Source of the DNA: Lentisphaerota bacterium
Lineage (GTDB): Bacteria > Verrucomicrobiota > Kiritimatiellia > JAAZAB01
Length of the DNA: 7,554 nucleotides
Direction of reading: 5' to 3'
Assembly: GCA_016182435.1 (NCBI GenBank)
Contig: JACPGN010000104.1
Location: forward strand, 1-7,554
The translations under genes and the position numbers were made by a program. This document shows positions 2,865 to 5,097 of the stretch, piece by piece (position 1 is the stretch's first letter; every line of letters starts with the position of its first letter). Below the pieces are notes generated by a model. The model had not been told where the DNA came from, made no database searches, and saw only the letters and a program-made list of their open reading frames with translations.

Positions 2865-3797
2865 TTAACGCAGCAGATAAACAAACTTTTCAGTCCGTGC
2901 GTCGCGTTCGATGTCCAAAACAAAGGCATTAGCGCGGTCCTTGACGAACTCGTTGATAAAATATTCCGCCCGCGACTGGCTGATCATGGGCAGGGAATTG
3001 ACTTGCCTGATAATATCGCCCTGTTTAAGCCCGAACGCGCCAAATACATCGCCTTCCCCCTCAATATCCAGCGCATAGCCGGCTATCTTTCCGGAGTGAT
3101 AAACGGGCTTGAGCGATTCGAAAACCCTGGCCAGCCGGTCGGGATTATTGAGCAGCTCCTGGTAGTAACGCAGCACGTTGCCGCGCTGAAGCACCCAGCG
3201 GCGTTCCCCGGTCCGGTTGCCGAACCGCAACAGGGTTGCCTCCGCCCGGCCCTGGATAGCGGCAGTATCCGCGCGGCTGGCGGGCGCCCCCGGTTTTTCG
3301 CCGCCGCCAAAGCTAAGCCACAATTGTTCGTCCCGACTCTCTGCGAGGTCGGGATTGCCCTCGCGCAAAACAATGCGATCCCTGGCGATGGAAACAACCA
3401 GAATGCCTTGCTCCAGCAGATCGCCCTCGGCCACCAGGCATTGAGTTTTTTTCAGAAGGTCATCAAGGATGGCCTTACGCGACTGCTGAGAGCTGCTGGC
3501 GGCAAAAAAAGTGCCGGCCAGGCGAAAGCGCTTAGCCAAGGGACCGAGATTGGCGGCAGCGAGTTCGGCGGTCCGTTTTTTAAACGTGTGGCCGTCAAAA
3601 CTCAGCTCCGGCTGTTCCCGCGCCGACCAAGCCGGCAAGCGGCTCTCGACACTCCGGAGCGGCAATTCAGAAAGCTGAAAATTCTGATAGGCCAGCGCAG
3701 CACCCACAAGCAGTGTTGTGGCGAGGGCTATTGGGCTAAGGTACCGGAACAGGGGGTTGACCGCCGCGCTATTCATGAGGGGGGTATTATCCGGCAT
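2865..3797 (-). CDS. gspC: Type II secretion system inner-membrane protein GspC
   Basis: 310 aa from the ATG at 3797. GspC is a bitopic inner-membrane subunit that links the inner-membrane platform of the type II secretion system to the secretin GspD and helps select substrates. Visible order: a short cytoplasmic tail; one membrane helix (about 19-37, LSPIALATTLLVGAALAY); a variable linker; the HR domain (about 90-163), with LAGTFFA, SRKAILDD, EGDLLEQGILVVSIARDRIV; and a C-terminal PDZ-like domain (about 225-309) with FGLKQGDIIRQVNSLPM and a final EKFVYLLR strand. The start is uncertain: the ATG at 3797 lies 4 bases from the RNase P RNA 3' end, leaving no space for a ribosome site; Met8 (ATG at 3776) is an alternative and also lacks a clear one. 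No other gsp gene is adjacent, so this copy is apart from the main secretion operon or is an orphan. Confidence 0.85.
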   Translation of the reverse strand: MPDNTPLMNSAAVNPLFRYLSPIALATTLLVGAALAYQNFQLSELPLRSVESRLPAWSAREQPELSFDGHTFKKRTAELAAANLGPLAKRFRLAGTFFAASSSQQSRKAILDDLLKKTQCLVAEGDLLEQGILVVSIARDRIVLREGNPDLAESRDEQLWLSFGGGEKPGAPASRADTAAIQGRAEATLLRFGNRTGERRWVLQRGNVLRYYQELLNNPDRLARVFESLKPVYHSGKIAGYALDIEGEGDVFGAFGLKQGDIIRQVNSLPMISQSRAEYFINEFVKDRANAFVLDIERDARTEKFVYLLR

Positions 3798-3801
3798 AAA
3801 T

Positions 3802-4351
3802 GGATTTCAGATAGCCAGGCTATAAGCTGGATTCTGTGGGGACAGCGCTTACGCACCGGCCCGATGGTCATTTGTCTTGCCCACCTGGTCAAAAAGACCG
3901 GGGGGACTTATTGCGATCAACCCGATACCGACCCCGCGACGCATAGCGCCATCGGGGTAAAGGCGGGTCGCCTTGCCAGTATCATATTTGATCTTGCTCC
4001 GGGTGGGGTTTGCCTTGCCTCCGGGCCTTGCGACCTGGAGCGGTGGTCTCTTACACCGCCATTTCACCCTTATCCCGATCTCTTGCGAGAATCGGGACGG
4101 TATTATTTCTGTGGCACTATCCGTTTCTTTCGCTTACGCGAAAGACCTCCCGGCATTACGCCAGGACACCCTACCCTGCGGAGTCCAGACTTTCCTCCCC
4201 GCGCGCGCCCTTCTTTGCTCGTCTGGCGGCCACGGCGTTCCCGCCAGAGGCGGGTCCGCCTATGGTGGAACCGCCGCGGCTACACCCCGCATAGCGCGGG
4301 CGAGAATGAAGGGTGGCGCGGAGCGACCATCCGCCTGACCACCTGAGATCC
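3802..4351 (-). ncRNA. rnpB: RNase P RNA (catalytic RNA, bacterial type A-like)
   Basis: Catalytic RNA that removes the 5' leader of tRNA precursors with the RnpA protein. Read on the minus strand, it holds GAGGAAAGUCUGGACUCC (conserved region I, 4197-4180), AAGGGUGAAAU (4071-4061), CCCACCCGGAGCAAG (4007-3993) and ACAGAAUCCAGCUUAUA (conserved region V, 3837-3821). The ends close as P1, GGAUCUCAG (4351-4343) with CUGAAAUCC (3810-3802), one mismatch. P2 is GUCAGGC with GCCUGGC. A hairpin UCCCGAU…AUCGGGA capped by GCAA fits P9. The length of about 550 nt exceeds the usual 350-400 nt, largely because of a 94-nt insertion at the tip of P3. It lies between the zinc-ribbon gene (18 bases upstream) and gspC (4 bases downstream), all on one strand. 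Ends are inferred from pairing and the promoter and may be off by a few bases. Confidence 0.95.
4214..4307. repeat. Nested palindromic insertion in helix P3 of rnpB
   Basis: The P3 arms of the RNA are CCGCGC-CA-CCCUUC (4321-4308) and GAAGGG-CGC-GCGCGG (4213-4199). The 94 bases they enclose replace what is normally a short apical loop. Within them GGCGGCCACGGCGT (4225-4238) and ACCGCCGCGGCTACA (4270-4284) match the intergenic palindrome at 2817-2846. These halves are separated by a 31-base double hairpin, CCCGCC/GGCGGG (4240-4254) and TCCGCC/GGTGGA (4255-4269), matching 1578-1608. A further hairpin CCCGC/GCGGG lies at 4286-4300, and CTCG (4219-4222 region) can pair with CGAG (4301-4304). P3 is peripheral to the catalytic core, so the RNA probably still works. 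Confidence 0.8.
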
Positions 4352-4357
4352 GGAAAT

Positions 4358-4386
4358 ACTCTACACGATTATCCAGGCCAATACAA
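4358..4386 (-). promoter_or_regulatory. Sigma70-type promoter of rnpB
   Basis: On the minus strand TTGTAT (4386-4381) and TAGAGT (4363-4358) are separated by exactly 17 bases and match the -35 and -10 consensus at 4 of 6 positions each. The first base of the predicted P1 helix (G at 4351) lies 7 bases downstream of the -10, the expected initiation distance. The promoter overlaps the last codons of the zinc-ribbon gene. Confidence 0.65.
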
Positions 4387-5097
4387 GAGGCGAGCGCAAA
4401 ACGAACAGGTAATAAGCGTTTCGGAGTGTTTGACGTCTTGAAGTATATGGGGCGGCAAGGTCATATGGCATCCGCCGCAGGCATTAAGTCGTTTGCCCTC
4501 TATGCTTACCAGGGCCGCATCCCGGCGATTTTCCATAACACGGGTATAGTGGGTCAGCCAGTCGGCGGGGATGCCGGAGGCCAGGCCTTGCCGGTCATGG
4601 GCAAGCTGTTGCATTTCGGCTTCCAGGTTTTTACGGCGCTCATCCAATTGCCGGCATTCGCCGCGCATGGTTTCTTCCGCTCCGCCAACTTTAGCTTTCC
4701 AACTGTCGGCCTCGCGCTGGGAGAGTTCGGCCGACTCCATAAGCTCGATCTCGCGATCTTCCAGCGACCTGACTTTTTCCTGCAGGGCGCCGATCTCTTT
4801 ATTCAGAACCTTAAATTCCTCGTTGGACTTGATTTGAAACTGTTGCTCGCGCAATTTAGCGACCTGCTGGCGGATGGTTTCAATTTCGACCTCCGCGTTC
4901 TTGATGGCCGCCAGGCAGGTCTTATGCGTTGCTTGAGCCTTTTCCAGTGCCGAGCGCTGGTCAGTCAACTTGCCTTCGGCGCTCTGCTTCCGGTTGGGAA
5001 TTTCGCTCAATTCCTGCTGGCAGCGCGCCATGTGGCAATCGCGCTCCTGGACAATTAGCAACTGGTCAATGATGCCGCGGACCGTTTGTTTATCCAT
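4369..5097 (-). CDS. Coiled-coil protein with C4 zinc ribbon (CT398-like)
   Basis: 242 aa. Residues about 20-170 are a long, charged, heptad-rich helix region predicted to form an antiparallel coiled coil. The KSNEEFKVLNKEIGALQ segment (about 90-106) is typical of this family. The C-terminus carries a zinc ribbon: Cys207-GG-Cys210 and Cys231-SF-Cys234, separated by PPHILQDVKHSE. The family is widespread in bacteria and includes chlamydial CT398; its members are described as adaptor or scaffold proteins rather than enzymes, and the biochemical role here is unknown. The start at 5097 follows an A/T-rich stretch without a clear ribosome site. The gene runs straight into rnpB, whose promoter lies in its last codons. 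Association of this gene type with rnpB is, from general knowledge, recurrent in bacterial genomes. Confidence 0.85.
   Translation of the reverse strand: MDKQTVRGIIDQLLIVQERDCHMARCQQELSEIPNRKQSAEGKLTDQRSALEKAQATHKTCLAAIKNAEVEIETIRQQVAKLREQQFQIKSNEEFKVLNKEIGALQEKVRSLEDREIELMESAELSQREADSWKAKVGGAEETMRGECRQLDERRKNLEAEMQQLAHDRQGLASGIPADWLTHYTRVMENRRDAALVSIEGKRLNACGGCHMTLPPHILQDVKHSETLITCSFCARLLYWPG

Follow-up and report, generated by a model that had tools for sequence, protein, structure and literature searches.

Trimming of transfer RNAs depends on RNase P, an essential RNA enzyme. That repeats can lie inside its RNA is already known, as a preliminary description of the present DNA had remarked, and the precedents are firm: one is Vioque's work of 1997, reportedly on STRR sequences (short tandem repeats) in the RNase P RNA gene, rnpB, of heterocyst-forming cyanobacteria, and the other is the palindromic element (RPE) of Rickettsia. 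In the passages of the two sources that treat them, RPEs measure 105–146 bp and are fused in the Rickettsia tmRNA and M1 RNA genes (PMC2229807, citing Ogata et al. 2002), and the RPE sequences of R. conorii end in CGTC (PMC3733652). The build of REPs and BIMEs, in which GTAG is followed by a palindrome of 20–50 nt, is set out in part of PMC8266576, where RAYT enzymes are described as recognising REP hairpins on single-stranded DNA. Many ORFs contain GTAG repeats, which are also recorded for the PVC superphylum, the number of intragenic ones being highest in O. terrae (PMC3733652); the insertions treated in section 15 of that source are in protein genes, with no RNA gene mentioned.

Here we describe an RNase P RNA gene, in a host that is probably one of the Kiritimatiellota, in which the tip of helix P3 carries a GTAG-type REP whose loop encloses a further palindrome. 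Like the Rickettsia RPE it is a dispersed palindromic repeat within an RNase P RNA gene, but it carries a GTAG tag rather than the CGTC end and 105–146 bp length given for RPEs in the excerpts above, and on that description would differ from them. With the GTAG-type REP/BIME families and their RAYTs, as far as the cited passages describe them, it shares the tag, a short palindrome, inverted pairs and high copy number; it differs in that the REP contains a nested palindrome and sits in a catalytic RNA, and in that a cognate transposase was not found in 49 Y1 loci. The cyanobacterial STRR case is alike in being repetitive DNA inside rnpB but is tandem by its title, whereas around the rnpB described here we found no tandem repeats (3700–4500). 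Among the papers listed by an open-access literature search, none was recognised as reporting a GTAG REP within an RNase P RNA, and pairing Kiritimatiellota with repetitive extragenic palindromes brought up no paper; a GTAG REP with a nested palindrome in this position appears to be new, in a phylum for which we found no such report in the open-access literature.

The window (the whole 7,554-nucleotide stretch of DNA analysed) holds the gene and its surroundings as follows.

3813 to 4340, minus strand: rnpB, bacterial class A RNase P RNA (528 nt from P1 to P1; RF00010 and pairing)
4333 to 4340, minus strand: 5′ strand of P1 (GGTCAGGC), with its partner at 3813–3820
4325 to 4331, minus strand: 5′ strand of P2 (GATGGTC), with its partner at 3863–3869
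4199 to 4321, minus strand: P3 arm with the insert at its tip (pairing CCGCGC/GCGCGG and CCCUUC/GAAGGG)
4358 to 4386, minus strand: candidate rnpB promoter (TTGTAT, 17-nt spacer, TAGAGT)
4369 to 5097, minus strand: gene for a CT398-like zinc-ribbon protein, just upstream of rnpB (PF24481 and PF02591)

The Rfam search that had been proposed as a check bore out the identification: the RF00010 covariance model matched the minus strand from 4226 to 3811 with 176.1 bits, above its gathering score of 100, and together with the presence of P1, P2 and the core segments this places the RNA in class A. The match starts at 4226, within the P3 insert, and the true ends of the gene, 4340 and 3813, were set by P1 pairing; inserts can thus shorten the coordinates assigned by the Rfam class A model. 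P1 pairs at 8/8 positions in the window and in the relatives G001–G004 and at 7/8 in G005, and P2 pairs at 7/7 in all six sequences, with G005 altered on both strands. In an alignment with these five relatives the conserved core segments of the window RNA are intact, as judged by eye, which upholds the earlier statement that the RNase P core is preserved; outside the insert, with P1, P2 and the core in place, the RNA looks functional. The five relatives' genes measure 453, 509, 504, 446 and 445 nt, against 528 nt in the window.

The TTGTAT–17–TAGAGT element is a possible rnpB promoter, whose –35 box (TTGTAT) overlaps the final codons of the CT398-like gene; its placement is kept in G001–G004 and less clear in G005, and it was absent from the list given by a generic promoter scan of the window. 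Same-strand rnpB follows a CT398-like gene in 14 of the 15 relatives' loci scanned, a conserved order that may exist because the –35 box sits in the end of the upstream gene. The best match to the CT398-like protein comes from a groundwater Lentisphaerae MAG (78%) and the next from Kiritimatiellota MAGs, which makes Kiritimatiellota the probable group of the host; a search of viral contigs for relatives of this protein found none.

The outer stem of P3 is formed by CCGCGC (4321–4316) and GCGCGG (4204–4199) and the inner stem by CCCUUC (4313–4308) and GAAGGG (4213–4208), the latter enclosing exactly the 94 nt, 4307–4214, that had been delimited beforehand, an assignment that holds to the base. 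In G001 (locus L001), the nearest relative compared, P3 reads CCUUUC-GUUGCC-GAAGGG, a near-identical stem closed by a 6-nt loop. The window arm has a total length of 126–127 nt, and the stretch 4187–4344 folds better than its dinucleotide shuffles (z = –3.26). Within the arm we distinguish the following parts.

4214 to 4307, minus strand: 94-nt insert replacing the 6-nt P3 loop of G001 (alignment gap in G001)
4285 to 4300, minus strand: 16-nt hairpin (CCCGCGCTATGCGGGG) adjoining the REP, largely paired in predicted folds
4230 to 4283, minus strand: one GTAG-type REP unit (GTAGCCGCGGCG ... CGCCGTGG) with a nested palindrome in its loop (dispersed G001 copies and pattern count)
4237 to 4271, minus strand: nested 35-nt palindrome (GTTCCACC...GGCGGACCCGCC...GGCGGGAAC) in the REP loop (matches in G001–G005)

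The preliminary description had called the insert a palindromic element; palindromic it is, but it is not one simple palindrome. It comprises two nested families, an outer 24-nt REP and an inner palindrome of about 33–35 nt. The REP unit, GTAG-CCGCGNNN-GTRA-NNNCGTGG, consists of the GTAG tag, an 8-bp stem and a 4-nt loop, and the inner palindrome, TTTCCGCC..GGCGGATCCGCC..GGCGGAAA with variants, stands alone at many sites. In rnpB the REP is single rather than paired, its own palindrome being interrupted by the nested one. The insert's first ~30 nt, including the 16-nt hairpin, gave no repeat evidence of their own, the G001 copies covering them weakly in one case, and no target-site duplication could be defined around the insert. 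Two further features of the window belong to the same families.

2785 to 2845, no strand assigned: intact inverted REP pair, BIME-like (REP at 2785–2808 on the plus strand, inverted REP at 2822–2845 on the minus strand, 13-nt linker)
1577 to 1608, no strand assigned: second member of the nested palindrome family, here with no REP around it (from its sequence)

An inverted copy of the right half of the second palindrome lies at 342–359, and the 13-nt spacing of the REP pair recurs in at least 15 inverted pairs of G001. A GTAG tag followed by a palindrome within the 20–50 nt range (24-nt units), high copy number and dispersal in the sister genome G001, and inverted pairs are what define a GTAG-type REP; judged by its sequence, the main unit of the insert is such a REP, its loop occupied by a second palindrome, and the composite is a multi-copy subfamily in G001.

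The insert had been described as matching repeats elsewhere in the window. This stands for the REP arms, which alone match elsewhere, at 2783–2846 (14 nt perfectly and 15–16 nt at 93–94%), although within the window alone the best match, 28.2 bits, is only slightly above chance, the maximum in 100 two-base block shuffles being 26.3 bits. The dispersal is plain in the relatives. A 108-nt query, the insert with 7 nt on each side, matched five of the six relatives G001–G006 at E up to 0.1, with no match in G006. In G001 it found at least 41 matches (40 of 180 candidates scored), among them at least eight sites that match 54–68 nt at 91–96% identity with E down to 4 × 10^-24; these eight span the REP and the nested palindrome, and the seven that we read are all in the same nested form as the rnpB insert. 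A second REP, completing a pair, is present in full at L099 and L103, nearly so at L095, partial or displaced at others and absent at L081. Matches in G002 (42), G003 (36), G004 (17) and G005 (2) fall nearly all at about query positions 45–78, the nested palindrome. With the whole window rnpB as query (E up to 0.01; 40 of 174, 81 and 58 candidates scored in G001, G002 and G003, all in G004 and G005), the non-rnpB matches in G001–G005 among those scored all lie within query positions 76–153, inside the insert.

A search for the pattern GTAGCYGCG-N5..35-CGTGG gave 73 + 73 (146) occurrences in G001 versus 4 + 4 (8) for the reversed control, and 30, 29 and 17 in G002, G003 and G004 versus controls of 12, 4 and 8; there was no excess over the control in G005 (2 versus 7) or G006 (3 versus 6). 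At least one match was found in 96 of 116 relatives, many at or under the control level, with a clear excess in G001, G104, G071, G054, G002, G003, G105, G112, G080, G062, G032, G004 and a few more. Between the window and G001 the repeat is 91–96% identical but its host gene, outside P3, 80.8% (325 of 402 compared columns), which points to late arrival from an active family; that the unit is closer between genomes than rnpB is as would be expected of a late insertion with the family still active.

G001 thus has an empty site where the window has the insert, copies of the insert's main unit are scattered through G001, and the rest of the window RNase P RNA is seemingly intact. The claim that a dispersed repeat had landed in rnpB is supported by the first two of these, and the condition under which it had been expected to fail, that 4214–4307 is not a genomic repeat, does not obtain for the main part. 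Very probably, a non-autonomous palindromic repeat inserted in the P3 terminal loop of a working rnpB. The mover would have been a REP-associated tyrosine transposase (RAYT/TnpA-REP) or another hairpin-processing pathway, acting on a single-stranded DNA copy of the repeat. The repeat would then be retained in the mature RNA, folding on itself and merely lengthening a peripheral stem. P3 points away from the RNase P catalytic core, and selection against the insert may be weak because it is self-folded and only lengthens this stem; the insert most likely contributes nothing to RNase P. An essential ribozyme thus appears to have taken a mobile repeat into one of its outer stems, and a sister genome displays both the unoccupied site and the donor family.

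The intervening sequences of some 23S rRNAs are cut out by RNase III, and the insert could likewise be excised after transcription by RNase III-like processing, leaving a two-piece RNase P RNA. The P3 arm is long and well paired, the form that RNase III can cut, but nothing else indicates cleavage; we consider excision improbable, and it concerns the fate of the RNA, so that it is compatible with an origin by insertion.

How P3 varies among relatives bears on the remaining alternatives. We found 125 rnpB genes by regular expression in fetched loci, the window included, of which 119 were delimited by script and six were not. The median P3 arm is 24 nt among the 119, some of them mis-delimited; an equally long, conserved P3 in relatives, which was to count against an insertion, was not seen, P3 being short in most. 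After correction by hand, at least 8 of the 125 arms exceed 60 nt: those of the window, G074, G100, G032, G089, G003, G080 and G002. Lengths vary with the script: by the one giving the median, the window and G003 arms come to 54 and 58 nt, versus 127 and 71 once the first C/T of P3 is counted, and the arms of L026 and L262 are overestimated, a separate measurement putting them at 28 and 14 nt; another script, which gave 126 and 70 for the window and G003, often placed P2 too far upstream. The arms of G074 (L264) and G100 (L265) measure 132 and 99 nt. By eye the long arms differ in sequence, the sister pairs G002/G003 and G074/G100 excepted.

The 70-nt arm of G003 contains a 26-nt hairpin, GTCCCGACTCTTCAAAAGGTCGGGAC, a variant of which lies in the P3 of G002. 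As a query at E up to 0.1, this arm found 11 further matches in G003, three in G002 beyond its rnpB, three in G004 and none in G001; at 14 of the 17 sites, which we read, the hairpin recurs slightly altered, and the flanks are for the most part unrelated, apart from two pairs of sites that share theirs. A third repeat, of the GCCAAGGCTATGGCGGGCAGG type, lies in the rnpB of G003 (L003:5250–5770) and G002 (L002) in the interval from the 3′ strand of P2 to the conserved ACARAAUCC, in a stem that we take to be the location of P19 in RNAs having P19; with the G003 rnpB as query and 40 candidates scored per genome, it matched other sites at least 15 times in G003, at least 13 in G002 and at least twice in G004. 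At least three repeat families, the nested REP being one, appear to have entered two RNase P RNA stems in this small clade, so that outer stems have seemingly been colonised repeatedly. The different repeats and events offer a natural series for studying how far RNase P stems tolerate growth, whether hairpin loops attract insertions and how variable ribozyme stems originate. No convincing dispersed copies of the G074 arm were found in G074 and G100 (a few weak matches at E 0.013 to 0.09), nor any of the G032 arm; a long P3 is therefore not by itself a sign of a repeat.

The families of G003 have possible traces in the window. At 3330–3354, inside the minus-strand ORF 2865–3797, stretches of 11 and 9 nt match the 26-nt hairpin family in register, and two 12-nt matches to the P19-type repeat lie at 395–431, inside the signal peptidase ORF 166–1383, where the related repeat may be translated in frame.

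The recurrence of arms over 60 nt might instead mean that a longer P3 helps the RNase P of this lineage to fold or bind, and that the window arm is such an adaptive extension. This seems unlikely to us: the long arms lack a shared sequence outside the sister pairs, the presence, in neighbouring lineages, of a different family of repeat in each of two stems looks like repeated chance landings, and G001 manages without a long P3. Less likely still is an assembly chimera, in which a repeat-driven misjoin placed the repeat in rnpB. The window does look like a metagenome contig, repeats do cause misjoins and the P3 insertion of the nested REP is seen in one contig; yet both flanks belong to the same rnpB, pairing across the insert is kept in P1, P2 and the two stems of P3 (the inner one close to that of G001), a misjoin would normally continue into another locus past the repeat, and a different repeat occupies the same spot in two other assemblies. 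Growth of P3 by local duplication or slippage, with the likeness to repeats a convergence of GC-rich palindromes, would suit the slim excess of the within-window match over its shuffles but is scarcely credible beside the long, near-identical G001 copies and the lack of tandem structure.

Insertion of a mobile repeat remains the reading that we favour, and we looked for what might have moved it. Each of the six near relatives G001–G006 has Y1-type transposases (21 loci), as do 10 of 10 further REP-surveyed genomes (28 new loci), but none of the 49 Y1_Tnp loci, read for the REP family of the window, is clearly flanked by it. Among the 21, only L126 matches the 9-base REP search word, without the remaining REP; among the 28, L322 has an in-family REP copy ~1.4 kb off, and L304 and L315 have the search word only. 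The best lead to the cognate RAYT is L309:2416 in the REP-rich genome G104 (31 + 41 pattern matches), where a Y1 frame interrupted by one stop has a GTAGCCGCCGCCGTGAGGCGGTGG hairpin, a near-relative of the REP, at a distance of ~620 bases. At L117, L118, L121, L123, L129 and L315 the Y1 gene is flanked on both sides by GTAG hairpins belonging to other families, and 24-nt GTAG hairpins are densest in Y1 loci, with 14 in 137 kb, versus 27 in 718 kb of CT398 loci and one in 88 kb of GIY-YIG loci. A link between Y1 genes and GTAG hairpins therefore seems to hold generally in the clade, though no clear case was seen for the REP family of the window; given that an insertion happened, the RAYT route is a reasoned guess with an even chance of being right.

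A GIY-YIG enzyme was considered as mover of the nested palindrome and rejected, since the 88 kb examined (30 loci of 51 PF01541 matches, G001–G005) held three palindrome cores, too few, and one of these is a tRNA-Leu cassette. In G002 (L083:1472–2090) this cassette runs from the 5′ half of a tRNA through the palindrome, a GIY-YIG ORF, an intact tRNA-Leu (1814–1897), a spacer, the palindrome again and the 3′ half of a tRNA to a second copy of the spacer; in G004 (L082:1080–1540) a GIY-YIG gene with one in-frame stop is followed by an intact tRNA-Leu (1347–1429), the palindrome and a 3′ half tRNA. By eye, the palindrome in these tRNA-Leu(UAA) cassettes lies within the anticodon loop (CTT/AAAA), and the cassette looks like a tRNA-invading mobile unit.

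It is conceivable, though we regard it as doubtful, that the loops of structured-RNA genes in this Kiritimatiellota clade are preferred landing sites for several unrelated palindromic repeats. The basis for this is that the P3 tip was struck at least twice (by the nested REP, and by the 26-nt hairpin in G002 and G003) and the stem near P19 once, and that the palindrome family nested in the insert also occupies the anticodon loop in the additional tRNA-Leu(UAA) fragments next to the GIY-YIG gene. If so, the RNA gene's own extruded DNA hairpins would be the target, and RNase P RNA a natural trap recording mobile repeats.

Two minor observations complete the survey. Genome G008 gave two rnpB matches (C244 and C556, of 295.6 and 193 bits) and has either two genes or a mixed MAG. 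In the window, two intergenic hairpins, CATTCCCGCGCAAGCGGGAAT at 2455–2475 and GATTCCCGATTAGATCGGGAATGA at 2503–2526, look like further repeat elements.
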